Notes under the pieces: generated by a model
Database searches by the model: none
Told to the model about the DNA's origin: nothing
What the model saw: the letters and a program-made list of their open reading frames with translations, nothing else
Shown here: positions 11,574 to 24,504 of the stretch, in pieces
Position numbering within the stretch: position 1 is the stretch's first letter
Layout of the letters: each line of letters opens with the position of its first letter
NCBI RefSeq assembly: GCF_016127315.1
Contig: NZ_CP065997.1
Coordinates: 1,240,001 to 1,304,000, forward strand
DNA: 64,000 nucleotides
From: Achromobacter deleyi
Lineage (GTDB): Bacteria > Pseudomonadota > Gammaproteobacteria > Burkholderiales > Burkholderiaceae_B
Direction of reading: 5' to 3'
Made by a program: the position numbers and the translations under genes

Positions 11574-13279
<1,706 letters not shown>

Positions 13280-13388
13280 CGCGGCCCTGCGCGGCGATCA
13301 TCCGAACGCGGTACTGGATTGCGGGCAGGGGCGGGCCTATACTGGATTCGCCCTTGCTGGACGTTCCTTTTCTCAAAGGAGACGCAAC

Positions 13389-13826
13389 ATGTACAGGCAT
13401 CTGCTCATCGCCGTGGATGGCTCGCTGCTGTCCGAGTCGGCGTTCAAGAAGGCGCTCCTTTTCGCCAAGGAAATGAACGCCACCGTCACCCTGCTGCGCG
13501 CCATTCCGGAAGACCACCTGACGGTCTACCAGGCCGAAATGCTCGGTGCCCACCAACCACAGCACACCGACCAGGCCCGCAAGAACGCCACCGCCTATCT
13601 GGAAGGCCTGGAAACCGAGGCCTGCCATGCGCTGGTGCCGTGCAATACCGCGGTAGTGGTCAACGACCATCCACACGAAGCCATCGTCGACACGGCGCAG
13701 CAACGCGGCTGCGACCTGATCGTGATGGGATCGCACGGCCGCCACGGCATGACCGGCTTCCTGCTCGGCAGCGAAACCCAGCGCGTGCTGGCGCGCACCA
13801 AGCTGCCGGTGCTGGTGTTCCGCTAG
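13389..13826 (+). CDS. Universal stress protein, UspA family
   Basis: 145-aa single-domain Usp of the ATP-binding type. The nucleotide motif G-x2-G-x9-G-S is visible in the segment GSHGRHGMTGFLLGSETQ near the C-terminus, and the N-terminal strand YRHLLIAVDGS carries the family aspartate. A strong ribosome-binding site (AAAGGAG) precedes the ATG. A -10-like TATACT is present at 13338-13343 but no matching -35 was recognised. It is a single gene, convergent with the reductase gene at 13851, and is probably a stress or stationary-phase protein unrelated to either neighbouring operon. Confidence 0.92.
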   Translation: MYRHLLIAVDGSLLSESAFKKALLFAKEMNATVTLLRAIPEDHLTVYQAEMLGAHQPQHTDQARKNATAYLEGLETEACHALVPCNTAVVVNDHPHEAIVDTAQQRGCDLIVMGSHGRHGMTGFLLGSETQRVLARTKLPVLVFR

Positions 13827-13850
13827 GCGGGCTTTGCCAGCGGCGTCGCC

Positions 13851-14867
13851 TTATGGCATCGCCGCCGTGGCTGGCGCGTGCTGAAAGGTGAAGCTGTCGG
13901 CGTAGACGTGGTCGAGGCTGGCGCCGCGCCCTGCCAGCAGCGCGGTCGCCTCGCTGATCATCGCCGGCGCGCCGCACAGATAGAAGGCGTGCTCGGACAG
14001 GTCGCCGTGGTCTTGCAGCACCGCCTGCTGCACGTGGCCGCGGCGGCCCTGCCAACCGGCGTCGGCGCGCGACAGCACCGGCACGAAATTGAACTCGTAC
14101 AGGCGACCCGCCCAGCCCGCGATCTGATCGCGCAGGTACAGGTCGGCCTCGGTCCGCATGCCCCAATAGAGCGTGACCGGCGGGCAATCGTCGTTGTCCA
14201 GCAGCGATTCCAGGATGGCCTTGATCGGCGCGATGCCGGTGCCGGTGGCCATCATGATCATCGGCCGCCAGTCTTCCTCGTGGTAGCTGAACACCCCCAG
14301 CGGCGCCTCGATCTCGAGCGCGGCGCCCGGCCGCGCCTGGCCCAGCCAATGGTCGGTGTAGCGGCCGCCCGGAATGCGGCGCACGTGGAAGTCCACCAGG
14401 TTGCCGGCGGGCGCCGAGGCCATCGAGAAGCTGCGGGTGGCGCCGTCCGGCAGCACCACGTTCATGTACTGCCCGGGCGCGTAGTCCAGCGGCGCGTCCG
14501 GCGGCAGCGCCAGCGTCAGGTGGGTGACGTCGTCGCACAGCGCCGCGATGCGGTGCACGGTGGCGTCCAGCCGCCGCGGCTCGGCGAACTGGCGGGTGTT
14601 GGCGACGCTGATGGTCAGGTCGGCGCACGGCCGCGCCTGGCAGGCCAGGGCATAGCCCTGGGCCGCCTCTTCCGGCGTCAATGCCATCGGAAACTCGTCG
14701 TAGGCGACCGTCCCTTCGGCCAGCTTGATACGGCAGGTGCCGCAGCCGCCGAAAGTGCATTCGTGCGGCAGCCGCACCGCGGCGCGCTCGGCCGCCGCCA
14801 GCACGGATTCGCCGGCCTCGGCCTCGAAGGTCTGGCCGGTCTCGAGCAGATGGACGCGATATGCCAT
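13851..14867 (-). CDS. Ferredoxin-NAD(P)H reductase with N-terminal [2Fe-2S] domain (BenC/phenol hydroxylase type)
   Basis: 338-aa electron-transfer flavoprotein. The N-terminal plant-type [2Fe-2S] domain has cysteines C37, C42, C45 and C76. A ferredoxin-reductase domain follows, with the FAD motif RSFSMAS and the NAD(P)-binding segment MMATGTGIAPIKAI, ending with YLCGAP. Such proteins move electrons from NAD(P)H to oxygenases. It is last in the leftward run ALDH - GlcG/HbpS - reductase (22-base gap), and is the only reductase near the diiron oxidase and two ferredoxins at 20.3-22.2 kb, so it probably drives that oxygenase (inference). Confidence 0.9.
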   Translation of the reverse strand: MAYRVHLLETGQTFEAEAGESVLAAAERAAVRLPHECTFGGCGTCRIKLAEGTVAYDEFPMALTPEEAAQGYALACQARPCADLTISVANTRQFAEPRRLDATVHRIAALCDDVTHLTLALPPDAPLDYAPGQYMNVVLPDGATRSFSMASAPAGNLVDFHVRRIPGGRYTDHWLGQARPGAALEIEAPLGVFSYHEEDWRPMIMMATGTGIAPIKAILESLLDNDDCPPVTLYWGMRTEADLYLRDQIAGWAGRLYEFNFVPVLSRADAGWQGRRGHVQQAVLQDHGDLSEHAFYLCGAPAMISEATALLAGRGASLDHVYADSFTFQHAPATAAMP

Positions 14868-14889
14868 GGAATTCCCCGCCAGCCGGCGC

Positions 14890-15369
14890 TTATTTCTTGA
14901 TGTCCGCCTGCACCAGCACCTTCATGCCGCGCGGCTCCAGCATTTCGGCCAGCGCCGTCAGCGCCGCCAGGCCCGCCTGGGTGTCCTGTTCGCCGTTGCC
15001 GCCGCTCAGGCCGACGCCGCCGATGACCTCGTCGTTGACCACGATGGGAAAGCCGCCCACGAACGCCGCGAACTTGCCCTCGAAGCTCCACTGGATGCCG
15101 AAGGCTTCGTTGCCGGGCAGCGCCGGCCCGTTGGGCGGCGTGGTGAACAGATGCGTCGAGCGCTTGTGGCCGGCGGCGGTGAAGGCCTTGTTCCAGGCGA
15201 TCTGCGGGCCTGTGATGCGGGCGCCGTCCATGCGTTCCAGCGCGATCGGGTAGCCGCCGTCGTCGACGATGCACACCGATTCCAGCACGCCGATCTGTTC
15301 CGATCGGGCGATGGCCGCGCGCACCATGGCGCGCGCTTCTTCCAGTTCCAGGCGATAGATCTGCTTCAT
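14890..15369 (-). CDS. GlcG/HbpS family protein (DUF336)
   Basis: 159-aa protein of the GlcG/HbpS fold, in which some members bind haem or cobalamin and others are found next to glycolate, diol or aromatic catabolism genes without known activity. The motifs LEEARAMVRAAIARSEQIGV, VDDGGYPIALERMDG and the C-terminal GGVGLSGGNGEQDT are typical. No signal peptide is seen, so it should be cytoplasmic. It lies between the aldehyde dehydrogenase (20-base gap) and the reductase (22-base gap), in the same direction, so it is probably part of the same catabolic unit. No specific role can be read from sequence. Confidence 0.88.
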   Translation of the reverse strand: MKQIYRLELEEARAMVRAAIARSEQIGVLESVCIVDDGGYPIALERMDGARITGPQIAWNKAFTAAGHKRSTHLFTTPPNGPALPGNEAFGIQWSFEGKFAAFVGGFPIVVNDEVIGGVGLSGGNGEQDTQAGLAALTALAEMLEPRGMKVLVQADIKK

Positions 15370-15389
15370 GTCTGTTCTCCAAAGGGCCG

Positions 15390-16850
15390 TCAGCCGGCGC
15401 GATAGACGGTCTTGATCTGGGTGTAGAACTCCAGCCCGACCCGGCCCGATTCACGGAAGGTCGAGGTGCTGGAGCTTTTCAGGCCGCCGAACGGCGCATT
15501 GATGAGATTGCCGGTGGTGGTGCGGTTGATCTTGACGGTGCCGGCCTGGATGTCGCGGGCGAAGCGATGGGCGTAGCGCGCGTCGGTGGTGGCGATGGCG
15601 GCGGCCAGGCCGTACTCGGTGTCGTTGGCGCAGGCGATGGCCTCGTCGTAGCCGTCCACCGCGATCAGCGCTAGCACCGGCCCGAAGATTTCCTCGCGCG
15701 CAATGCGCATCTGCTGCGTCACGTCGGTGAACAGGGCCGGAGTCACGTAATAGCCGCGCTCGTAGCCCGGGCCCTCCAGGCGATCACCGCCGATCAGATG
15801 GGTGGCTTCCTGCTTGCCCAGCGCGACGTAGCTCAGCACCGTGTCGAGCTGCTTGCGGGTGGCCAGCGGCCCCAGGTCGAAATTGCCCTCCAGGCCGTTG
15901 CCGATGGTCAGCTTGGCCATGCGCGCCAGCAGCTTCTCGGTGAACGCCGGCAGCACCTTGCGGTCGACCAGCAGCCGGCTGGTGCCGGTGCAAGCCTGGC
16001 CGCTGAGCGAGAACCCGCCCTTGACCGCCAGGTCCACCGCGCGATCCAGGTCGGCGTCGGCCAGCACGATCAGCGGGTTCTTGCCGCCCAGTTCCATCTG
16101 CGTGCGCGTGGTCAGGCCGGCGCCGCGGTGGATCTGCTCGCCGGCGGAGGTCGAGCCGGTGAAGGAGATGGCGCGCACCGCCGGCGCGGTGGTGATGGCC
16201 TGCCCCACCTTCGAGGCCAGCCCCGTCACGAAATTCAGCACCCCCGGCGGCAACCCCGCCTCGATCAGCGCCTGCGCCAGGCGATAGCCGGACAGCGGCG
16301 CGTCCGACGACGGCTTGAACACCACGGTATTGCCGGTGATCAGCGCCGGCGCGATCTTGCGCGCCGGAATCGAAATCGGGAAGTTCCACGGCGAAATCAC
16401 CGTCACCACCCCCAGCGGCTCGCGCTGGCTGTAGACCACCATGTCCGGATCGTCGTTGACGAAGGTCTCGCCGGTGAAGGACTGCCCTTCCACCGCATAG
16501 AAGCGCAGGGTCTGGGCCGAGCGCAGCACTTCGTCGCGCGCCAGCGCCAGGCCCTTGCCTTCCTCGCGGGTCAGTTCGCGCGCCACGCTGTCGGCGCGGT
16601 CTTCCAGCAGCTGGGCGGCGCGCAGCAGGATGGCGGCGCGCTTGGAGATCGGCGTGTCGCGCCAGGCGGGAAAGGCGGCGGCCGCCGCCGCCACGGCGCG
16701 GGCGCCATCGGTGGCGTCCGATTGCTGGAACCGCCCCACCACGTCGGCGCTGTCGGCCGGGTTCAGGTTCGGCGCCGTCGCGCCCGAAGCGCAGGCGACC
16801 CATTCGCCGCCGATGTGATTCAGAAATGCCTGCTGCGAAAGCTCGTCCAC
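15390..16850 (-). CDS. Aldehyde dehydrogenase, NAD(P)-dependent (semialdehyde-type)
   Basis: 486-aa enzyme of the ALDH superfamily that oxidises an aldehyde to a carboxylate. Numbered from the chosen start, the catalytic residues are N156 (SPWNFP), E253 (MELGGKNP) and C287 (SGQACTGTSR). The C-terminal INAPFGGLK resembles alpha-ketoglutarate-semialdehyde and vanillin/benzaldehyde-type enzymes. The GTG at 16850 is taken as start because AAAGGAAGGA lies seven bases upstream and the N-terminus then matches family length; an ATG at 16919 would overlap the shared promoter motif. It is the first gene of the leftward ALDH-HbpS-reductase operon. Its substrate is probably the product of the nearby diiron oxidase (inference). 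Confidence 0.88.
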   Translation of the reverse strand: MDELSQQAFLNHIGGEWVACASGATAPNLNPADSADVVGRFQQSDATDGARAVAAAAAAFPAWRDTPISKRAAILLRAAQLLEDRADSVARELTREEGKGLALARDEVLRSAQTLRFYAVEGQSFTGETFVNDDPDMVVYSQREPLGVVTVISPWNFPISIPARKIAPALITGNTVVFKPSSDAPLSGYRLAQALIEAGLPPGVLNFVTGLASKVGQAITTAPAVRAISFTGSTSAGEQIHRGAGLTTRTQMELGGKNPLIVLADADLDRAVDLAVKGGFSLSGQACTGTSRLLVDRKVLPAFTEKLLARMAKLTIGNGLEGNFDLGPLATRKQLDTVLSYVALGKQEATHLIGGDRLEGPGYERGYYVTPALFTDVTQQMRIAREEIFGPVLALIAVDGYDEAIACANDTEYGLAAAIATTDARYAHRFARDIQAGTVKINRTTTGNLINAPFGGLKSSSTSTFRESGRVGLEFYTQIKTVYRAG

Positions 16851-16912
16851 GGAAGTCCTTCCTTTGCCGGGCTGGCCGGGATGCCCTGAAATTGGCCGTC
16901 TGAGGTAATTTC

Positions 16913-16926
16913 TGAACATTGTATAC
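16913..16926. promoter_or_regulatory. Shared promoter/operator motif upstream of the aldehyde dehydrogenase
   Basis: TGAACATTGTATAC occurs here and, identically over 14 bases, at 22255-22268 upstream of the diiron oxidase gene. Read on the minus strand it is GTATACAATGTTCA, so the -10-like TATACAAT faces the ALDH gene 60-70 bases away. The GTATAC core is palindromic, as in many GntR-family operators. A GntR gene lies at 19.5 kb. Confidence 0.6.
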
Positions 16927-16967
16927 TTTAATCCAAATGGTTCGATCCGCGTAAACCCGAATCGGCG

Positions 16968-18500
16968 TCAATGCCAGATCAGCACGGCGCAGATCGTCGA
17001 CACGAACAGCGCCAGCAGCACGGGCAGCAGCAGCGCCCGCACCAGCGACAGCACGTGGACCCGGGCAAACCCCGCCACCGCGATCAAGGAGGACCAGGCG
17101 ATCAGCGTGCCGCCGCCCGTCCACACCGCGCCCATCTGACCCACCGCCGCCAGCGTGGCCGGATCCACCCCCACCACCGGTCCCAGCGCGCCCGACAGCG
17201 TGCCGGTCAACGGCAGGCCGGCGAAACCCGAGCCGTCGATGCCGGTGATCATTCCCACCAGCAGCACGCCGAACGCCACCAGGAAATGGTTCTCGGGAAT
17301 CAGGTGCTGACCCGCCGAGATCACTTCGAACAGCAGCCCGGGGGCCTGCGCCTGCGGCATGCCCAGGATCTGCGCGGCGGTCTCGTTGGCGCCGATGAAG
17401 AAGAAGCCGGCGATCGGCAGCACCGAGCCCATCGCCTTGAAGGCGAACACGAAGCCATCGGTGACGTGCTCGGGGCAGACGTCCAGCATCTTGCGCGGCC
17501 CTTCGGCGGCCAGCGTCACCAGCATCATCACCACGAACGCCACGCCGCCCACCAGCGCCGCCGCGTCGCCGCCGCGCAGCGCCGGCAACGACGGGAACAG
17601 CCGCGGCAGCACCATCACCGCGATCACGCCCAGGAAGGCCAGCGGCGTCACCACCGCGAACACGCGCGACCAGCGCACCCGGCGCCGTTCCTCGTCGTCC
17701 AGCCCGGGGCCGCGCGGCAGCGCCGGGTTGGCGCCCATGGTGCCGCGCGCCAGCTCGGCCTTGTCGAACGAGCCGGAATGCTCGATCTCGGCCAGGCTGC
17801 CGTCCTGGGCGCGCGCCTGCCAGGCCGACAACAGGCCCGCATTGGCGGGCACGATGTGCTTGCGGATCAACAGGTAGGCGACGGTCAGCGCCACCGCGCC
17901 GGTGATCAGCGACAGCACCAGCGCGCGGTCGGCCACCACCGCGGCGCTGACCGCGGCGCCGGCGGCCTTGGCGCTGATGCCGGGCGCCACGCCGATCACG
18001 TAGTCGGACGACAGCGCCATGCCCTGCCCGGCGATGGCGATGGCCATGGCGCCCGCCAGCGGCGGCAGCCCGGCCGCGATGGCCGCCGGCAGCAGGATCG
18101 CGGACACCAGCGGCACCGCCGGCGTCGGCCAGAAGAACAGCGAGATCACATAGGTACAGAGGGCGATGATGACGAACGACGAATGGCCGCCGCGCATCAC
18201 CCGCCGGAACGGCTGCACCATGCGCACGTCCGCCTGCAGCGTCTTGAGCGCGTTGAGCAGGGCGGTCATGAAAGTGATGACCAGGAAAATGTTGAAAAGC
18301 TCTTTGGCGGCCACGAAGCTGGCCGAGAAGATGCCGATCAGCGCGCTGATCGGGTTGCCGGTGATGGCCAGCACCACCAGAAAGGTGCCAATGACCGACG
18401 GCACCACCACGTTGGCCCGCAGGATCATCGTCAGGATGATGGCGGCGACGCTGACCAGGTACATCCAGTGAGCGGCGTTGAGGACGACGTCCGATTGCAT
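16968..18500 (-). CDS. Multispan membrane transporter, ion-transporter-superfamily-like
   Basis: 510-aa integral membrane protein with about 12 hydrophobic segments and a charged cytoplasmic loop in the middle (residues about 235-285). Re-entrant-like segments such as GITGIDGSGFAGLPLTGTLS-type glycine-rich stretches and QMGAVWTGGGTLIAWSS resemble carboxylate carriers of the GntP/DcuC/CitM ion-transporter superfamily. Not recognised as a specific family. The ATG at 18500 has a ribosome-binding site (AAGGGG). It is transcribed leftward towards the ALDH operon and is divergent from the TauE-like gene. It is a good candidate for import of the substrate of this locus (inference). Confidence 0.75.
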   Translation of the reverse strand: MQSDVVLNAAHWMYLVSVAAIILTMILRANVVVPSVIGTFLVVLAITGNPISALIGIFSASFVAAKELFNIFLVITFMTALLNALKTLQADVRMVQPFRRVMRGGHSSFVIIALCTYVISLFFWPTPAVPLVSAILLPAAIAAGLPPLAGAMAIAIAGQGMALSSDYVIGVAPGISAKAAGAAVSAAVVADRALVLSLITGAVALTVAYLLIRKHIVPANAGLLSAWQARAQDGSLAEIEHSGSFDKAELARGTMGANPALPRGPGLDDEERRRVRWSRVFAVVTPLAFLGVIAVMVLPRLFPSLPALRGGDAAALVGGVAFVVMMLVTLAAEGPRKMLDVCPEHVTDGFVFAFKAMGSVLPIAGFFFIGANETAAQILGMPQAQAPGLLFEVISAGQHLIPENHFLVAFGVLLVGMITGIDGSGFAGLPLTGTLSGALGPVVGVDPATLAAVGQMGAVWTGGGTLIAWSSLIAVAGFARVHVLSLVRALLLPVLLALFVSTICAVLIWH

Positions 18501-18542
18501 GCGCTATTCCCCTTGTGACGTGGCTGTTGAGTCGCCACTTCG

Positions 18543-18548
18543 GTATAC
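18543..18548. promoter_or_regulatory. GTATAC motif upstream of the transporter gene
   Basis: GGTATACTATA lies 43 bases upstream of the transporter start, in an AT-rich 223-base divergent region. It shares the GTATAC core, and on the minus strand GTATACCG, with the site at 22263. Probably part of the same local control circuit. Confidence 0.5.
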
Positions 18549-18700
18549 TATATTTCGTTTGAAGCCATACCAACCGAAATATGCGGTGCCTAGGGAAACC
18601 GATAATTCTGAAATTTCCATGAATATTCGAGGAAAATCAGTGCATTAAGTTGGCGCACAAGCCCAATCTTGGTGCATCGCCGGTTTTCAATCAGACTACC

Positions 18701-18706
18701 GTATAC
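18701..18706. promoter_or_regulatory. GTATAC motif upstream of the TauE-like gene
   Basis: CTACCGTATACATAAA ends about 12 bases before the TauE-like ATG at 18724. Its reverse complement (GTATACGGTAG) parallels GTATACCGTCTACC at the oxidase promoter. Its position suggests overlap with the -10 region and the transcription start. Confidence 0.5.
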
Positions 18707-18723
18707 ATAAAGAGTGATCTGGC

Positions 18724-19461
18724 ATGCCCTTTGCCCTTCCCGATCTCTGGCATTACGCCGCCATGGCCGCGGTCGTCTTCGGCGCCGCGCTGGCGCAGGG
18801 CGTGGGCGGCATCGGCTTCGCCATGTTCGCCGCGCCGGTGGCGGCGCTGTGCTTCCCGCAGCTCGCCCCCGGCCCGCTGCTGACGCTGGGCGGTTTCATC
18901 TCGCTGCTGACCGCGCTGCGCGAACGCGCCGCGATCGACTGGCCGGCGGTCGGCTACGCGCTGACCGGACGCGCCGCCGGCACGCTGATCGCCATCTATG
19001 CCATGGCGCGCTTCGCGCCGCAGGCGCTGGGCCTGCTGTTCGCCGCCATGATCCTGGCGGCGGTCGCCCTCAGCGCCGCCGGCCTGCGCTTTGCCGCCAC
19101 CCCGGGCCGGGTCTCGGGCGCTGGCGTGGCCTCGGGCATCATGGGCACCATGACCTCGGTCGGCGCCCCGCCGATCGCCCTGGTGCTGCAGCACGCCGAG
19201 CCGCCGCGGCTGCGCGCCACGCTGGGCATGGTGCTGTTCCTGGGGTCGATCTTCTCGCTGGCGATGCTGGCGCTGGCCGACCGCTACACCGGTTACCACG
19301 CCGCGCTGGCGCTCAGCCTGGCGCCGTTCCTGCTGGCCGGCTTCGCCGTTTCCGGCCGGCTGCGCTCGCGGCTGCCGCCGCGCGCGGTGCGCGCCGTGCT
19401 GCTGGGCGCCTGCGCCATCGGCGCGCTCGGGGTGATCGCCAAGGCCCTGTGGCTCGGCTGA
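18724..19461 (+). CDS. Sulfite exporter TauE/SafE-family (TSUP) membrane protein
   Basis: 245-aa inner-membrane protein with about seven to eight hydrophobic segments. It belongs to the TSUP family (former DUF81), whose members export sulfite, sulfoacetate or other small organic anions. Family markers are the N-terminal AAMAAVVFGAALAQGVGGIG and the second-half repeat SGIMGTMTSVGAPPIALVLQ. The start ATG at 18724 follows a GTATAC promoter motif. The GntR regulator gene follows in the same direction after about 75 bases and has its own motif. In sulfonate degradation loci TauE-like proteins often remove released sulfite, which fits the sulfite dehydrogenase genes at 23.3-24.8 kb; the actual cargo is not proven. 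Confidence 0.85.
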   Translation: MPFALPDLWHYAAMAAVVFGAALAQGVGGIGFAMFAAPVAALCFPQLAPGPLLTLGGFISLLTALRERAAIDWPAVGYALTGRAAGTLIAIYAMARFAPQALGLLFAAMILAAVALSAAGLRFAATPGRVSGAGVASGIMGTMTSVGAPPIALVLQHAEPPRLRATLGMVLFLGSIFSLAMLALADRYTGYHAALALSLAPFLLAGFAVSGRLRSRLPPRAVRAVLLGACAIGALGVIAKALWLG

Positions 19462-19497
19462 CGCCGCCCGCCGATGCCGTCGTCGCCCCGCCCGGTA

Positions 19498-19515
19498 ATA
19501 CAATGAAGACTGTAT
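19498..19515. promoter_or_regulatory. Candidate autoregulatory operator of the GntR gene
   Basis: ATACA (19498-19502) and TGTAT (19511-19515) form a dyad with an 8-base spacer, just before the regulator gene. The sequence TACAATGAAGAC (19499-19510) closely repeats TACAATGAATAC at 22390-22401 and its first part matches the minus strand of the motifs at 16913 and 22255. TACAAT would be a good -10 box. Confidence 0.55.
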
Positions 19516-19538
19516 CCATTCCGCCAGACCTGCTCGCC

Positions 19539-20255
19539 ATGACCACTTCGCCCGTCAGCTCGCAAGCCGTAGACACGCAGCAATCTGCTCCGCTGAAGAT
19601 CGGCGAGCAGCATCCGCAGTTGTTCGCGGTCATCCGCGACAAGCTGCGCGAGCGCATCCTCAGCGGCGAATTCACGCCCGGCGACCGCCTGGTCGAAGGC
19701 CGCCTGTCCGAGGAAATGGGCGTGTCGCGCATCCCGGTGCGCGAAGCCCTGCGGGCGCTGGCGGCCGAAGGACTGGTCACCATCGAGCCGCGCCGCGGCG
19801 CGTCGGTGTCGGTACTGTCGGACGCGGTGGCCTACGACATGGTGGAAGTGCGCGCCACGCTGGAAGGCCTGAACGCCAAGTTGGCCGCGCAGCGCCGCGA
19901 CGACAAGACTGTCGAACGCCTGCAGGCCTTCCTGCGCGAAGGCACCGAGGCCGCGCGCGGCGAACGGCTCGACAAGTTCCTGGCGCTGAATTCGCAGTTC
20001 CACGAAATGCTGGCCACCATCGGCGGCAACGTGGTGCTGACCGACCTGATGCGCTCGCTGCGCGACCGCACGGCGCTGCTGTTCGCCCCCAGCAACATGC
20101 ATCGCGCCAAGCAGAACTGGGACGAGCACTCGCAGATCCTGAATGCCGTCATCGCCGGCAACGGCGACCTGGCCGCGCTGCTGGCCAGCCAGCACGTGCA
20201 TAACGCCGCCAAGGCCTACACAGAAACGCGCCAGGCGCACTCCTCGGCCGCCTGA
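19539..20255 (+). CDS. GntR-family transcriptional regulator, FadR/FCD subgroup
   Basis: 238-aa DNA-binding regulator. The winged helix-turn-helix (about residues 30-95) has the GntR signature SGEFTPGDRLVEGRLSEEMG followed by SRIPVREALRALAAEG. The C-terminal FCD helical domain contains the metal/ligand histidines in the segments FHEML and HSQILNAV. FCD regulators usually repress catabolic operons and respond to an organic acid. The ATG at 19539 is preferred because the in-frame ATG at 19503 sits within a TACAAT box that matches -10 elements of the neighbouring promoters; the longer form would add 12 residues. It is probably the local regulator of the oxygenase, dehydrogenase and transporter genes (inference from the shared motif). 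Confidence 0.85.
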   Translation: MTTSPVSSQAVDTQQSAPLKIGEQHPQLFAVIRDKLRERILSGEFTPGDRLVEGRLSEEMGVSRIPVREALRALAAEGLVTIEPRRGASVSVLSDAVAYDMVEVRATLEGLNAKLAAQRRDDKTVERLQAFLREGTEAARGERLDKFLALNSQFHEMLATIGGNVVLTDLMRSLRDRTALLFAPSNMHRAKQNWDEHSQILNAVIAGNGDLAALLASQHVHNAAKAYTETRQAHSSAA

Positions 20256-20271
20256 GCGCAGGCCGTTACGG

Positions 20272-20299
20272 GCTGACCGTTGGCGCTGGAGCGGTCAGC
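20272..20299. terminator. Hairpin between convergent gntR and ferredoxin genes
   Basis: GCTGACCG (20272-20279) pairs with CGGTCAGC (20292-20299) across a 12-base loop, lying between two convergent genes. No T-run follows, so intrinsic termination is uncertain. Confidence 0.5.
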
Positions 20300-20308
20300 G
20301 CGCGGGCG

Positions 20309-20659
20309 TCATGGCGCGGCGGGCGCCGCTTGCGCCGCCGTGTCCGTCACCACGCCCTTGCCGTCGCGCACCTCCCACGACACGGCCACGTCGCCCAGCA
20401 CGAAGGTCTGGCAGGCCATGCGGTAGCCGGCCTCGAAGTCCTCGGGCCGCAGGTGCTTGCGTTCCTTGGGCTTGATGGCGTCGGTGTTCTCGATGCCCTG
20501 CTCGATGCGGCACTTGCAGGTGCCGCACAGGCCGCCGCCGCACTTGAACGGAATGCCACCCTTTTCCTTCAGCGACACCCGCAGCAGATTGCTGTTTTCC
20601 GGGGCCTGCGCCACCTTGCCGCCATTCGATAGAAACGTGATCTTGACCATGCTGCTCAT
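20309..20659 (-). CDS. Plant-type [2Fe-2S] ferredoxin, copy 1
   Basis: 116-aa soluble ferredoxin. Cluster cysteines C40, C45, C48 and C83 follow the plant/chloroplast pattern C-x4-C-x2-C-x(n)-C, in the context FKCGGGLCGTCKC and YRMACQ. Its ATG at 20659 overlaps the stop of the 113-aa protein gene (ATGA), so the two are translationally coupled. It is the last gene of the leftward run oxidase - ferredoxin 2 - 113-aa protein - ferredoxin 1. It probably donates electrons to the diiron oxidase (inference). Confidence 0.9.
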   Translation of the reverse strand: MSSMVKITFLSNGGKVAQAPENSNLLRVSLKEKGGIPFKCGGGLCGTCKCRIEQGIENTDAIKPKERKHLRPEDFEAGYRMACQTFVLGDVAVSWEVRDGKGVVTDTAAQAAPAAP

Positions 20660-20997
20660 TGCTCCGCGGCGACGCGGTCGGGATGCCGCGTCAGGGTGGT
20701 ATCGATACTGCCGAACCGGGTCAGGTGGACCAGCTCCTGGCGCGCGGCTTCCAGCGACGCGAAGGCCTCCAGGAACTTGGACGGCACCCGGTTCACCACA
20801 TAGGGCGGCGTTTCCTCGGTCACGACCAGCCGGCTCGGGCCGCGCAGCCGCGCGATGCTGAAGACCGCGCGCAGCCGGCCGTCGCAGGCGTAGTCGTAGG
20901 TCTCGACGATCTCGGCCAGCGCGTCCGCCTCGGTGCGGTACACGCCGGGCTTGGACGTCAGGATCACGAACACGGGGTCATTCGCGTCGCGGGTCAT
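20656..20997 (-). CDS. Unknown 113-aa protein between two ferredoxins
   Basis: Small soluble protein of unrecognised family. It has no signal peptide, membrane segment or cysteine cluster; the single cysteine is in ETYDYACDGRL. Alternating strand/helix character (VFVILTSKPGVYRTEAD, then RAVFSIARLRGPSRLVVTEE) suggests a compact alpha/beta fold. The start at 20997 is supported by AAAGGA upstream; a longer frame to 21090 has no such site. It is coupled to ferredoxin 1 by a 4-base overlap and lies 70 bases after ferredoxin 2. Its place suggests an accessory or coupling subunit of the oxygenase, comparable in size to effector proteins of other diiron systems, but no homology to those is visible. 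Confidence 0.72.
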   Translation of the reverse strand: MTRDANDPVFVILTSKPGVYRTEADALAEIVETYDYACDGRLRAVFSIARLRGPSRLVVTEETPPYVVNRVPSKFLEAFASLEAARQELVHLTRFGSIDTTLTRHPDRVAAEQ

Positions 20998-21067
20998 GCG
21001 CGGTTCCTTTGCAGATTGCGTTCGGGAAAAATCGGGGTTGCCTCGGCGTTGCCGATCGTGAAAGCGC

Positions 21068-21406
21068 CTAGCGCTGCTCGGCGGCGGCAACGGCCTCGCG
21101 CGGCGCCGCCGCCTCGACGTCCTGCGCCAGTTCGATGTCGTGGTCGAGCCATAGCTGGCAGGCCAGCCGGTAGCCCGCGTCGATGCGCTCGCCCAGCTGC
21201 TTCTTTTCCTTCCAGTTCACGGGCGGCAGGTGTTCCGCTCCCGCCAGCACGCGGCAGGCGCACTTGGCGCACTTGCCCATGCCGCATTCGTAGCGCAGGT
21301 GCGGAAAGGGAAACTGCCGGATGCCGGCGCGCACCACCAGGTTGGCGTTGTCCGGCACCATCCCGGTATGGGTCTGGCCGTCTTTGTGGAATACGACGGT
21401 AGGCAT
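21068..21406 (-). CDS. Plant-type [2Fe-2S] ferredoxin, copy 2
   Basis: 112-aa soluble ferredoxin with cluster cysteines C41, C46, C49 and C83, in the context YECGMGKCAKCAC and YRLACQLW. The two ferredoxins are clearly distinct in sequence, so this is not a recent duplication; they may have different potentials or partners. It starts 64 bases after the diiron oxidase stop and is followed by the 113-aa protein. The middle insertion PPVNWKEKKQLGERID parallels KPKERKHLRPEDFE in ferredoxin 1, which suggests that both belong to the same subgroup. Confidence 0.9.
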   Translation of the reverse strand: MPTVVFHKDGQTHTGMVPDNANLVVRAGIRQFPFPHLRYECGMGKCAKCACRVLAGAEHLPPVNWKEKKQLGERIDAGYRLACQLWLDHDIELAQDVEAAAPREAVAAAEQR

Positions 21407-21470
21407 GGATCAGGGTTCCGGTTGCGCCCGCCGCCGCCGCCCGGGCGGGCGGCGATGGCGGGCAGGAAGC

Positions 21471-22202
21471 TCAGGCCGCCAGGCCCAGTTCGGGCAGGGC
21501 GATTTCCTGCTGCACGTAGTCGGTGTAGAGCGCGGTGGTGTACAGCAGCCGCATCTGCGCGCCGATCTCGCAGATCTTCAGGCAACGCTGCTGCAGTTCC
21601 ACCGTGTTGGCATGCTCCAGCACGATCTGGTAGCCGCGCTCGCCATGGATCTCGTCGGACACGATGTGCAGGTCGAAGAATTCGACCTCCTCGTCGGTGA
21701 AGCCGTACTTCTCGCGCAGCGTCGGCGTCTGCTTGCGGTAGATCGACGGCACCTGCGATTCCAGGCCCACCACCAGGCCGGCCACGGCCACGATCGGGTC
21801 TTCGCGCATCGCCACCGCGTAGCACCAGCTTTGCAGCGCCCGCGTGGTGGGCGACATGTTGTCCGGATTGGTGACCCGTGCGCGGGTGGTGCCGCAGGCC
21901 TCGGCGAAGCGGATCAGCAGGTCGGTATGGCGGTCGCCGCCGATTTCCTCTTCGTACATGTTGGCCAGCAGGAAATCCTTGGCCTCGGTGTAGGTATCGG
22001 GCGTGCGGGCGTACAGGTAACCCAGGTAGTCGGCGAACGGGCCGACGTAGTGGTAGTGGTTCTCGGCCCAGCGCGACAGGTGCTCGCGGCTGAGCTTGCC
22101 TTCGGCCCAGGCGATCGAAAACGGCGAGGCGTTGGCGCTCTTGCCCTTGATTGCGTTTTCCAACGCGGTACGGAATTCATCTCGGTTCATCAGTTCAGCC
22201 AT
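21471..22202 (-). CDS. Haem-oxygenase-like diiron oxidase (HDO/TenA-PqqC fold)
   Basis: 243-aa all-helical protein of the PqqC/TenA fold. Six potential iron ligands are present with the spacing known for HDO proteins: E85 and H92 (EEEIGGDRH), E148 (VGLESQ), and H179, D183 and H186 (HIVSDEIH). This matches the set recalled for Chlamydia CADD (Glu81, His88, Glu142, His174, Asp178, His181) and the H-x3-D-x2-H motif of SznF. HDO enzymes use O2 for N-oxygenation, desaturation or C-C cleavage. It is not a TenA thiaminase, since that metal-free enzyme lacks this set. It is first in an operon with two ferredoxins and a 113-aa protein. The ATG at 22202 has GGAG upstream. The substrate is unknown. Confidence 0.85.
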   Translation of the reverse strand: MAELMNRDEFRTALENAIKGKSANASPFSIAWAEGKLSREHLSRWAENHYHYVGPFADYLGYLYARTPDTYTEAKDFLLANMYEEEIGGDRHTDLLIRFAEACGTTRARVTNPDNMSPTTRALQSWCYAVAMREDPIVAVAGLVVGLESQVPSIYRKQTPTLREKYGFTDEEVEFFDLHIVSDEIHGERGYQIVLEHANTVELQQRCLKICEIGAQMRLLYTTALYTDYVQQEIALPELGLAA

Positions 22203-22254
22203 GACGCGCTCCAGGTCTGGTGAGGGAGGGGCGGCCGAAGTCTTCGACCGATGA

Positions 22255-22268
22255 TGAACATTGTATAC
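22255..22268. promoter_or_regulatory. Shared promoter/operator motif upstream of the diiron oxidase operon
   Basis: TGAACATTGTATAC, identical over 14 bases to 16913-16926, lies 53 bases upstream of the oxidase start. On the minus strand it reads GTATACAATG, a -10-like box facing the operon. The palindrome AGGGACGGTCCCT at 22320-22332 lies further upstream and could be a second site. Confidence 0.6.
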
Positions 22269-22365
22269 CGTCTACCATTTTGATCGACTAGGGTATTCCC
22301 GCTGCGATTCGTTCATAAAAGGGACGGTCCCTCTGATATCAAGGACTTGGCGCGGGCAACCGGGG

Positions 22366-22395
22366 TTGGCGGCATGGGCGGCCGACTGGTACAAT
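22366..22395 (+). promoter_or_regulatory. Candidate sigma-70 promoter with the shared TACAATGAA motif
   Basis: TTGGCG (22366-22371), an 18-base spacer, then TACAAT (22390-22395). The sequence TACAATGAATAC continues over the expected start point and is almost the same as the element at the gntR gene. It faces the small open frame starting at 22427. Confidence 0.55.
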
Positions 22396-22426
22396 GAATA
22401 CACTTTCAATGCAATACGGAAATACC

Positions 22427-22636
22427 ATGACCACCCGCCATCCCCTGGGAGACGCCCCCATCGGCCAGCAGCTGCTGGCCCACTACGCCGGCCGCGATGC
22501 CGTGCGCCATGCCACGCCCTTGTTCCCCTCGTCGTGGTCGGAATGCCTGGCGCCGTTCCGCAACGCCCGGCTGCGGCCGCAAGCCGCGCCGTCGGTCCAG
22601 GCCGACGAGCGGACGCCGGCCATCCAGGTCGGCTGA
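22427..22636 (+). CDS. Small hypothetical protein (69 aa) divergent from the diiron oxidase
   Basis: Open frame with a plausible promoter 32 bases upstream. The protein starts MTTRHPLGDAPIGQQLLAHY and has no recognised domain, signal peptide or membrane helix. The ATG at 22427 is preferred to that at 22394, which falls inside the predicted -10 box. There is no clear ribosome-binding site. The promoter carries the same motif as the HDO locus, so if the gene is real it is probably co-regulated. It could also be a non-coding transcript. Confidence 0.4.
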   Translation: MTTRHPLGDAPIGQQLLAHYAGRDAVRHATPLFPSSWSECLAPFRNARLRPQAAPSVQADERTPAIQVG

Positions 22637-22708
22637 CGCCCGCCAGTCCATCACGACGGGCGCGATCCATCCGGGGCGCATTGCGCGCGCCCGGCCGGCC
22701 CCGATGGC

Positions 22709-23125
22709 CTAGGCCCCGGCGGCCCGGGAGCCGATCGATTGACGGCCCGACTGCCACCGGCGCCGCACCCCGGCCAGCAGCAGCACCAGGAAGAATCCCA
22801 GCGTGTAGGCCAGCACGTCCCACCAGTCCGGCACGCTGCCCAGCAGGATGCGCAGCACCGGCTGCTCCAGGCGCCAGCCGAACAGCCGCGCCAGGTACTG
22901 GCCGAACTCGACCGCGTAGCCGGTCAGCAGCGCCGCGACCGCCAGCGGCAGCACGCCGGCGCGGATGAAGCTGCGATACACCAGATAGGCCCAGCCCACC
23001 GCCACCACGTCGCCCACGAACCCGCGCAACAGCGGGTAGGGCTTGCCCAGGGTGGCGATCAGCACCTCCACGACGGTCACGGCAAGCAGGGCGACGAATG
23101 CCGGTGGGTTGAAGGTCAGTCGCAT
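22709..23125 (-). CDS. DUF2809 family membrane protein
   Basis: 138-aa integral membrane protein with four hydrophobic segments. The C-terminal motif SVPDWWDVLAYTLGFFLVLL and the central GYAVEFGQYL are characteristic of DUF2809, a small uncharacterised family. The ATG at 23125 begins a natural first helix; an upstream extension to 23278 overlaps the promoter of the divergent sulfite dehydrogenase and is rejected. It is convergent with the small frame ending at 22636. No function is known. Confidence 0.75.
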   Translation of the reverse strand: MRLTFNPPAFVALLAVTVVEVLIATLGKPYPLLRGFVGDVVAVGWAYLVYRSFIRAGVLPLAVAALLTGYAVEFGQYLARLFGWRLEQPVLRILLGSVPDWWDVLAYTLGFFLVLLLAGVRRRWQSGRQSIGSRAAGA

Positions 23126-23268
23126 CGGGAGGTCAGGCGCCCAGGGCGCCGAAAACGCGGTTATTGGAACGGCTGACGCAACTGTTAACGCATTTGTCAG
23201 GCCGGCGGGCGTAGCCTGATTCGGCCCCGCCGCAGGCGAGGGTACTAGAAAAACACAAGGAGACATGC

Positions 23269-24504
23269 ATGAGCGCATTCGATACGGATGGGCGCAGGCG
23301 CTTCCTGCGCCAGGCCTGTACCCTGGGCGCGACCGGCACGCTGGCCGGCCACGCCCTCACCAGCCTGGCGGCCCCCGCCACCGTCACCCTGCCGTTCGCC
23401 AATGGCGAGCGCGACCTGATCGCCTACCCCCAGAAACGCCCCCTGATCCGCCAGACCTCGCGGCCGCCGCAGCTGGAAACGCCATTCGCGGTCTTCAACG
23501 ACAGCGTGATCACGCCCAACGACGCCTTCTTCGTGCGCTACCACCTGGGCAACATCCCCACCGCCATCGACGCCGCCGCCTACCGGCTGCGCATCGGCGG
23601 GCGGGTGGGCACGCCGCTGGAACTGTCGCTGGCGGACCTGAAGCAGCAATTCGGCCAGCCGGTCGAGCTGGTGGCCGTGACCCAGTGCTCCGGCAACAGC
23701 CGCGGCTTCTTCGAGCCGCGCGTGGGCGGCGGGCAGCTCGGCAACGGCGCCATGGGCAACGCCCGCTGGCTCGGCATTCCGCTCAAGCGCGTGCTCGAGA
23801 AGGCCGGCATCCAGGCCGGCGCGCGCCAGGTCACGTTCCAGGGGCTGGACCGGCCGGTGCTGCAGGGCACGCCCGAATTCGTCAAGGCGCTGGACGCGGC
23901 CCATGCGCTGGACGGCGAGGTGATGCTGGCCTATGCCATGAACGGCGCCGACCTGCCGATGCTCAACGGCTATCCCGTGCGGCTGGTGGTGCCCGGCTAT
24001 TACGGCACCTACTGGGTCAAGCACCTGGCGGACATCACGGTGCTGGACAAGGAGTTCGACGGCTTCTGGATGCAGAAGGCCTACCGCATCCCCGACAACG
24101 ACTGCGCCTGTACGCCCGCGGGCAAGGCGCCGGAGAAGACCCGCCCCATCGGCCGCTACAACGTGCGCAGCTTCATCACCAGCCTGGCCGATGGCGCCCG
24201 CGTCGCCAAGGGCGCGCGGGTGCAGGTGCGCGGCATCGCCTTCGACGGCGGCCGCGGCATCCGCGAAGTGCAGTTCTCGGCCGACGACGGCAAAACCTGG
24301 CGCGCCGCCACGCTGGGCCAGGACCTGGGACGCTATTCCTTCCGCGAATGGCATGCCGACTTCACGCCGGCCCAGGCCGGCCGCTACGCGCTCAAGGTGC
24401 GCGCCACCAACCAGGCCGGCGAGACCCAGCCGCTGGAACCGCTGTGGAATCCGGCCGGCTACATGCGCAACGTGGTCGAAACCGTGCGCGTCGACGCCGC
24501 CTGA
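23269..24504 (+). CDS. sorA: Periplasmic sulfite dehydrogenase, molybdopterin subunit (SorA/SoxC-like)
   Basis: 411-aa enzyme of the sulfite oxidase family. It oxidises sulfite to sulfate and passes electrons to a cytochrome c. A twin-arginine signal (RRRFLRQACTLGATG) is present, as expected for a folded molybdenum enzyme. The molybdenum-ligating cysteine is C140 in AVTQCSGNSRGFF. The C-terminal Mo-co dimerisation domain contains FDGGRGIREVQFSADDGKTW. The cytochrome gene follows after 14 bases. It could belong to the SoxC group, but no sox genes are nearby, so a SorAB-type enzyme is favoured. It probably detoxifies sulfite released from sulfonates and related compounds. Confidence 0.88.
   Translation: MSAFDTDGRRRFLRQACTLGATGTLAGHALTSLAAPATVTLPFANGERDLIAYPQKRPLIRQTSRPPQLETPFAVFNDSVITPNDAFFVRYHLGNIPTAIDAAAYRLRIGGRVGTPLELSLADLKQQFGQPVELVAVTQCSGNSRGFFEPRVGGGQLGNGAMGNARWLGIPLKRVLEKAGIQAGARQVTFQGLDRPVLQGTPEFVKALDAAHALDGEVMLAYAMNGADLPMLNGYPVRLVVPGYYGTYWVKHLADITVLDKEFDGFWMQKAYRIPDNDCACTPAGKAPEKTRPIGRYNVRSFITSLADGARVAKGARVQVRGIAFDGGRGIREVQFSADDGKTWRAATLGQDLGRYSFREWHADFTPAQAGRYALKVRATNQAGETQPLEPLWNPAGYMRNVVETVRVDAA

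Follow-up and report, generated by a model that had tools for sequence, protein, structure and literature searches.

What does a haem-oxygenase-like protein (HDO) do when it is encoded beside two ferredoxins and an orphan protein, and which of the surrounding genes work with it? About a dozen HDOs have been functionally validated and tied to natural-product and cofactor biosynthesis, and none of those studied so far requires a protein effector (2026 review, PMC13108848). The locus considered here occupies positions 13851-22202 of a 64,000-nucleotide stretch of Achromobacter deleyi DNA (the window), where the list of open reading frames and Pfam place all ten genes named in the original prediction at their predicted positions. 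It probably encodes a multicomponent oxygenase with a haem-oxygenase-like diiron protein as its core, in a regulon that would be induced for the catabolism of an organic anion.

The HDO (21471..22202, minus strand, 243 aa) carries a haem-oxygenase-like domain (PF14518, 133.4 bits against a cut-off of 28.9). In the alignment to CADD, placed with the ligand numbering of that protein, residues E85, H92, E148, H179, D183 and H186 form a set of three histidines and three carboxylates, kept in 120/120 relatives among the matches listed. From its sequence, the site would be diiron, as originally predicted, and the bound metal is presumably iron. The nearest solved relatives are CADD/PabS and PqqC (1.4e-17 and 1e-10); the self-sacrificing p-aminobenzoate synthases CADD/PabS (PDB 9pj4, 8va9 and 1rcw) are the closest HDO sequences, with the same six ligand positions by alignment. 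In all, 495 stretches encoding an HDO relative occur in one-per-species genomes, where database names include TenA regulator, PqqC and iron-containing redox enzyme.

The next three genes encode two small iron-sulfur proteins flanking the orphan. FdA (21068..21406, minus strand, 112 aa, CX4CX2C...C) and FdB (20309..20659, minus strand, 116 aa) are [2Fe-2S] ferredoxins scoring 36.7 and 47.9 bits against PF00111 (cut-off 21), and the four-cysteine motif is present in 99/99 FdA and 98/99 FdB sequences, one duplicate locus being included in the sample. Between them lies U113 (20656..20997, minus strand, 113 aa), a candidate effector or adaptor whose gene overlaps that of FdB by 4 bases. Public records name U113 a ferredoxin; a third ferredoxin is ruled out by the lack of any conserved cysteine, 64 of 99 sequences (again with one duplicate locus) having none at all. 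Neither Pfam nor NCBIfam matches U113 at E<=1, a fold search returned no usable match, and comparison with known effector families and folds gave no match, which speaks neither for nor against an effector, for example of the MmoB/DmpM type. The predicted fold of this small protein is beta-rich, and it carries no redox residues.

These four genes travel together, also in bacteria that are only distantly related. Among 268 genomes of the family, HDO is found in 76, U113 in 76 and FdA in 77, nearly the same set, with HDO and U113 together in 75. The sole Achromobacter genome of 43 without HDO (G393) also lacks U113 and FdA. One genome (G547) contains U113 and FdA and no HDO, on a contig that starts inside the aldehyde dehydrogenase gene; another (G606) contains HDO, both ferredoxins, an HbpS-like gene, the transporter and a GGT-like gene, and neither BLAST nor a profile finds U113 there, so U113 is not required everywhere. 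In 100 distinct loci the FdA-U113-FdB trio is contiguous in 98, close to HDO or apart, and this contiguity is therefore more than chance. HDO lies within 600 bp of the trio in 66 loci and farther away in the same locus in 32; since the trio is kept in both arrangements, the gene set survives rearrangement. Joint conservation is thereby upheld for HDO, U113 and FdA across the family genomes and, with FdB added, in the 100 loci. The Fisher test carries no correction for phylogeny.

The locus counts were made by tblastn with self-chosen identity thresholds for each gene, because greedy ORF calling missed or merged some genes, and the sample leans toward close relatives (best 80 of 495). Flanks were added from 16 of 23 genomes and from 1 of 3 in the order to which the Kaistia genome belongs, the rest being already in the set, on short contigs or left out; a contig present twice (L124 and L037) was counted once, and L084, a near-copy of L002, and L003, from the present genome, were excluded. 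HDO occurs only in the present genome in a class-wide draw of 369 genomes and in 3 of 397 genomes of the Kaistia order, and the cassette is therefore patchy. Cupriavidus metallidurans CH34 is among its carriers (L001).

The predicted joint conservation of the whole unit holds for this core and fails for its periphery. An HbpS-like gene is present in 95 of the 100 loci, the reductase in 69, the aldehyde dehydrogenase in 75 and TauE in 54; no reductase was found in the remaining 31, some of which are short contigs. The reductase, the aldehyde dehydrogenase and TauE are replaceable parts. Both the reductase and the aldehyde dehydrogenase are absent near HDO in 15/15 distinct Acetobacteraceae-type loci, and a reductase search of 9 whole genomes found nothing above 40% identity in 6 of them, so another electron source must operate there.

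By position and strand, the locus is divided into four transcription units: HDO-FdA-U113-FdB, TauE-GntR, the transporter, and aldehyde dehydrogenase-HbpS-reductase. A GTATAC palindrome stands in front of all four. Before HDO (22256..22268, minus strand, GTATAC at 22263-22268) and before the aldehyde dehydrogenase gene (16914..16926, minus strand, GTATAC at 16921-16926) it forms part of an extended operator-like box, GTATACAATGTTC; the strand-symmetric palindrome alone precedes the transporter (18543..18548) and TauE-GntR (18701..18706). The extended pattern, which was defined from the sites at the locus itself, occurs twice in the whole 7-Mb genome, both times at this locus, and its reversed-pattern control not once. 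Rfam detects no RNA at gathering scores at 13000-23500.

The palindrome is retained in relatives. Within 250 bp upstream, in the 100 distinct loci, GTATAC precedes HDO in 88/100, the transporter in 83/83, TauE in 47/54 and an amidase of a neighbouring operon in 21/21, and none of the controls: UspA (0/26), the sulfite-oxidase-like gene (0/16) and GMC (0/7). Each of eleven other palindromes precedes HDO in 0-5 of 101 loci, a sample with one duplicate locus, and motif counts in the 160 bp upstream agree with these 101-locus counts. The lower frequencies at the aldehyde dehydrogenase (28/75), GntR (47/90), OCD-like (ornithine-cyclodeaminase-like, 10/40), GGT-like (1/10) and reductase (0/69) genes are as expected for operon-internal genes, but are no proof of it. 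The shared boxes and the conserved core therefore mark out a single regulon, presumably under GntR control, with HDO, both ferredoxins and U113 at its centre. We infer that its regulator is the GntR/FCD protein encoded in the locus (19539..20255, plus strand, 238 aa; FCD 88.8 and GntR 75.2 bits in Pfam), which would pair with the GTATAC boxes. By the box counts, UspA (13389) and the sulfite-oxidase-like neighbour (23269) are ruled out as members. The gene set and the shared boxes thus support in part the catabolic unit originally predicted as complete, with redrawn boundaries and with the reductase, aldehyde dehydrogenase and TauE as replaceable members. Dpp-type ABC genes at 9.7-13.3 kb, upstream, are not counted in the set.

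The remaining genes outline a possible route for electrons and carbon. The reductase (13851..14867, minus strand) is BenC/MmoC-like, with Fer2, FAD_binding_6 and NAD_binding_1 domains; at 205 bits against the BenC model NF040810 (cut-off 430), it shares the domain make-up and is not an equivalog. The 159-aa HbpS/GlcG-like protein (14890..15369, minus strand, 109.3 bits in Pfam) belongs to the HbpS/GlcG/EfgA/NahX family (PDB 2a2l, 5cx7, 6bws and 9jth). EfgA senses formaldehyde, according to excerpts of PMC8153426, and by analogy a C1 aldehyde by-product is possible. The aldehyde dehydrogenase (15390..16850, minus strand; Aldedh, 544.7 bits) probably begins at GTG 16850, giving 486 aa, and not at 16919, which the longest frame reaches, because the longer start abuts the GTATAC box; automated calls give 481-489 aa in 13 of the 19 relatives' loci shown. 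Its best NCBIfam model, alpha-ketoglutaric semialdehyde dehydrogenase (NF042993, 540 bits), is the nearest model only, the cut-off being 770. The transporter (16968..18500, minus strand, 510 aa) has one Pfam match, under the cut-off, and no NCBIfam match; its modelled fold is that of the ion-transporter superfamily, with an isethionate TRAP carrier also matched. TauE (18724..19461, plus strand, 65.4 bits) is a TauE/SafE-family permease.

In the proposed scheme, the ion-transporter-type carrier would bring an organic anion into the cell. Electrons from NAD(P)H would pass through the FAD and [2Fe-2S] centres of the reductase to FdA, FdB or both, and on to the diiron site of HDO. U113 may dock on HDO, on a ferredoxin or on both, gating O2 activation or coupling electron delivery, as redox-inactive effectors do in multicomponent monooxygenases of the ferritin type. 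HDO would oxidise the substrate to a product from which an aldehyde arises, perhaps along with a by-product that is a C1 compound or an amide, and the aldehyde dehydrogenase would then oxidise the aldehyde. The GntR/FCD regulator, acting on GTATAC-type boxes, would control all four transcription units.

This scheme would work like sMMO and T4MO, whose layout is that of ferritin-type multicomponent monooxygenases: a diiron oxygenase, a small redox-inactive protein, a [2Fe-2S] carrier and an MmoC/BenC-type reductase. The locus differs from them in that its candidate oxygenase is haem-oxygenase-like and not ferritin-like, its small protein resembles no known effector in sequence, and it encodes two plant-type ferredoxins. 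Such monooxygenases are mentioned in passing in the excerpted text of PMC13108848. A closer counterpart within the HDO family is MboA-MboB, a mangotoxin HDO with a dedicated reductase, presented by its authors as possibly the first HDO-redox partner pair (2026, PMC13185094, excerpts). It combines 3-His/3-carboxylate ligands with an NAD(P)H, flavin and Fe2S2 reductase, and a reductase of this type is co-encoded at the present locus and in 69 of the 100 loci. MboA-MboB, however, is biosynthetic, and the excerpts name one partner and mention no separate ferredoxins or U113, whereas the regulon here looks catabolic and includes two ferredoxins together with an orphan protein. Searches of open-licence PMC papers named no described system with this gene set, and an oxygenase with its own electron-delivery proteins and a helper appears not to have been described for HDOs. 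Tentatively, and with somewhat less than even confidence, HDO-FdA-U113-FdB may be the first multicomponent oxygenase on a haem-oxygenase-like fold, served by two ferredoxins of its own and by U113 as an effector gating O2 activation. The methane-monooxygenase layout would then have been invented independently here, in a module for the catabolism of an organic anion common in the environment, and this module seems to have spread between Burkholderiales, Acetobacteraceae and Hyphomicrobiales. If so, an HDO equipped with a dedicated electron chain would serve catabolism, and U113 would be the first effector of an HDO, making O2 gating in HDOs testable by omitting one small protein, and a widespread gene set would gain a function.

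As to the substrate, an N-heterocyclic or amide-bearing carboxylate is possible, though on balance somewhat unlikely; ring or C-N cleavage would give a semialdehyde and an amide for accessory hydrolases. Homarine (N-methylpicolinate) is one such candidate and may already be published: a 2026 paper on its catabolism is cited in the excerpted text of PMC13390433, and PMC9870897 does not mention homarine. Unrelated amide or ester hydrolases recur next to the cassette, namely an amidase in 21/100 loci, all with the box, a GGT-like gene in 10/100, an isochorismatase in 7 loci, accompanied there by an SsuA-type importer (SsuA preceded by the box in 5/7), and an alpha/beta hydrolase in Caballeronia. 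An OCD-like reductase in 41/100 loci and the nearest model of the aldehyde dehydrogenase point the same way. However, each of these hydrolases is confined to a minority of the loci and may act outside the pathway to supply it, none was identified in the domain-searched part of the Acetobacteraceae-type loci, and the best solved relatives of the aldehyde dehydrogenase are betaine aldehyde dehydrogenases.

The ferredoxins and U113 could instead assemble or maintain HDO, reducing and loading a labile metal site while the substrate or some general donor supplies the electrons for catalysis. YfaE performs such maintenance for ribonucleotide reductase, and FdB and the reductase resemble the YfaE model below its cut-off of 75 (19.4 and 42.1 bits). 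Many HDOs have a labile cluster (PMC13108848), and the quartet is nearly indispensable where the reductase and aldehyde dehydrogenase are dispensable. We nevertheless consider this account unlikely: a full BenC-like reductase sits in the co-regulated unit of Burkholderiales loci, as would be expected for turnover, and two ferredoxins just for maintenance would be unusual.

A sulfonate substrate, desulfonated oxygenolytically with sulfite leaving through TauE and the aldehyde passing to the dehydrogenase, is decidedly improbable. The box before TauE, the SsuA-type importers (7 loci, 5 with the box) and the modelled match of the transporter to the isethionate carrier would suit it. Yet TauE is absent from 46/100 loci, TauE-family permeases also carry other anions, and the sulfite-oxidase-like neighbour, which lacks the box, is confined to 15 of 27 Achromobacter loci and one of Cupriavidus.

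That HDO acts in cofactor synthesis or modifies itself, like CADD/PabS or PqqC, its nearest solved relatives, is hardly credible, since it scores below the model cut-offs (99.3 against 200 for CADD, TIGR04305; 51.7 against 240 for PqqC, TIGR02111), its partners and context are other, and the sacrificed Tyr27 and Lys152 of CADD (PMC11965152) align with S29 and Q158, each invariant in 120/120 relatives among the matches listed.

The locus at 13851-22202 lies in a genome of one 6.99-Mb contig, and position and strand divide it into four transcription units. The HDO-FdA-U113-FdB unit (22202 to 20309, minus strand) encodes a haem-oxygenase-like, putatively diiron protein (HDO), two [2Fe-2S] ferredoxins and, between them, the 113-aa orphan U113, which overlaps FdB by 4 bases. 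The TauE-GntR unit (18724-20255, plus strand), the transporter unit (18500-16968, minus strand) and the ALDH-HbpS-reductase unit (16850-13851, minus strand) complete the locus. The gene names of the original prediction match Pfam and NCBIfam domain searches, in which U113 has no match and the transporter a single Pfam match below its cut-off. The ALDH start appears better placed at GTG 16850 than at ATG 16919, since the latter directly adjoins a GTATAC palindrome and the gene calls of 13/19 relatives give 481-489 aa.

HDO matches PF14518 at 133.4 bits (cut-off 28.9), and its closest solved proteins are the CADD/PabS-type pABA synthases (best 1.4e-17), followed by PqqC. When placed by alignment on the CADD ligand numbering, the six ligand positions E85, H92, E148, H179, D183 and H186 are identical in 120/120 database relatives among the matches listed and kept in 12/12 rows of the locus alignment. 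CADD sacrifices two of its own residues, according to PMC11965152. These align with Ser29 and Gln158 of HDO, again in 120/120 relatives among the matches listed; this speaks against a pABA synthase, and the protein is, judged by sequence, an HDO that shares CADD's aligned ligand positions but differs at its sacrificed sites. At cut-offs of 1e-20 or 1e-25, relatives from whole genomes share 79-100% identity with HDO, against ~25% for PqqC in plasmid records: a tight, well-separated sequence family. The HDO of Achromobacter dolens, insuavis and ruhlandii is 100% identical to this one. A second PF14518 match of 46 bits lies elsewhere in the genome (G000:C1:1832848-1833195). A Kaistia genome carries two HDO copies less than ~10 kb apart, both 88% identical to this one, and a Cupriavidus basilensis locus has two HDO-like ORFs.

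Among 268 genomes of the family, HDO (E<=1e-20) is found in 76, U113 (E<=1e-4) in 76 and FdA (E<=1e-20) in 77. HDO and U113 occur together in 75, comprising 42 of 43 within the genus and 33 outside it (Fisher p = 1e-64, kinship not corrected for); the remaining genus member, G393, yields neither HDO, U113 nor FdA. One genome mismatches each way. In G547, U113 is present and HDO is not found, the contig starting inside ALDH, upstream of which HDO is expected. In G606, a cassette of HDO, FdA, FdB, HbpS, transporter and a GGT-like gene has the ferredoxins adjacent, with no U113 detectable by blast or profile, and offers a natural test of the need for U113.

Gene content was compared in 80 loci from species genomes, 4 from plasmid records and 17 further ones, 100 being distinct after removal of a duplicate contig; the 80 are the best of 495, which biases the sample to close relatives. 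The FdA-U113-FdB trio is contiguous in 98/100, bearing out, with the 75 shared genomes, the expectation that HDO, ferredoxins and the 113-aa gene stay together. Of the two exceptions, L047 is cut by the end of its contig and L050, matched by coordinates to genome G565, has its trio ~64 kb off. HDO is <=600 bp from the trio in 66 loci and further in 32, 24 of them Cupriavidus. Per 100 loci, HbpS occurs in 95, GntR in 90, transporter in 83, ALDH in 75, reductase in 69 and TauE in 54, with accessory OCD-like (41), amidase (21) and GGT-like (10) genes. The 15 distinct Acetobacteraceae-type loci hold HbpS (13), GntR (7) and transporter (3), and ALDH and reductase in none; reductase is likewise found in 0/6 Bradyrhizobium loci. 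Searching nine whole genomes for the reductase gave >50% identity in three and none >40% in six. Five related Acetobacteraceae-type genomes (L127, L129-L132) carry, upstream of HDO, a molybdenum-hydroxylase-like gene (domain search in L129) and a gene for a protein of 471-493 aa that matches no Pfam model, possibly replacing the missing ALDH.

The palindrome GTATAC occurs five times in the 64-kb window against 1.55 expected, a count reached in 1/100 shuffles, and four of the five precede HDO, transporter, TauE-GntR and ALDH. The extended box GTATACANTRTNC, written from sites in this window, has two sites genome-wide, one preceding HDO and the other ALDH; its reversed control has none. Within 250 bp upstream of genes in the 100 loci (background mean 0.06 per 250 bp, same loci), the box precedes HDO in 88/100, transporter in 83/83, TauE in 47/54, GntR in 47/90, ALDH in 28/75, FdA in 10/98, OCD-like in 10/40 and HbpS in 3/95. 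It precedes reductase (0/69), U113 (0/98) and FdB (0/98), mostly inside operons, in no case. Neighbouring amidase (21/21) and SsuA-type importer (5/7) genes carry it; UspA (0/26), sulfite-oxidase-like (0/16), GMC (0/7), MFS (0/21), isochorismatase (0/7) and, with one exception, GGT-like (1/10) genes do not. Each of eleven other palindromes is found within 160 bp upstream of HDO in 0-5 of 101 loci (one duplicate included). The GntR protein presumably binds the box.

A multicomponent oxygenase is the most economical reading of the locus, whose parts, aligned ligands, linkage and shared boxes are directly observed. All its catalytic steps are putative: electrons would pass from the reductase through the ferredoxin(s) to HDO, U113 would serve as adaptor or effector, and ALDH would act on HDO's product. 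A weak pointer to the substrate comes from the recruited genes: several unrelated amide/ester hydrolases, an OCD-like reductase and an ALDH of the semialdehyde type would suit a carboxylate that contains nitrogen. ALDH's best solved relative is an NAD-type betaine aldehyde dehydrogenase, so this assignment stays a lead. According to a 2026 HDO review (PMC13108848), the HDOs examined so far do not depend on a protein effector, and the MboA paper (PMC13185094) presents MboAB as possibly the earliest case of an HDO paired with its own redox partner. A catabolic HDO with two ferredoxins and an effector would thus be new among HDOs. MboAB joins an HDO to a dedicated redox partner, whereas the candidate system would be catabolic, with two ferredoxins and a putative effector. 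The main threat to novelty is a conserved homarine pathway of environmental bacteria, published in 2026 (as cited in PMC13390433), which might include these genes.

Several public records (among P0128-P0158) call U113 (20656-20997) a 'ferredoxin', probably an annotation error; U113 has no conserved cysteine. The UspA gene (13389-13826), without a box, adjoins the reductase and is found in 26/27 Achromobacter loci and none of the other loci compared. Past the HDO operon lies a sulfite-oxidase-type molybdoprotein (PF00174, 23269-24504), also without a box, with relatives in 15/27 Achromobacter loci, and a DUF2809 protein (22709-23278) stands beside the locus.
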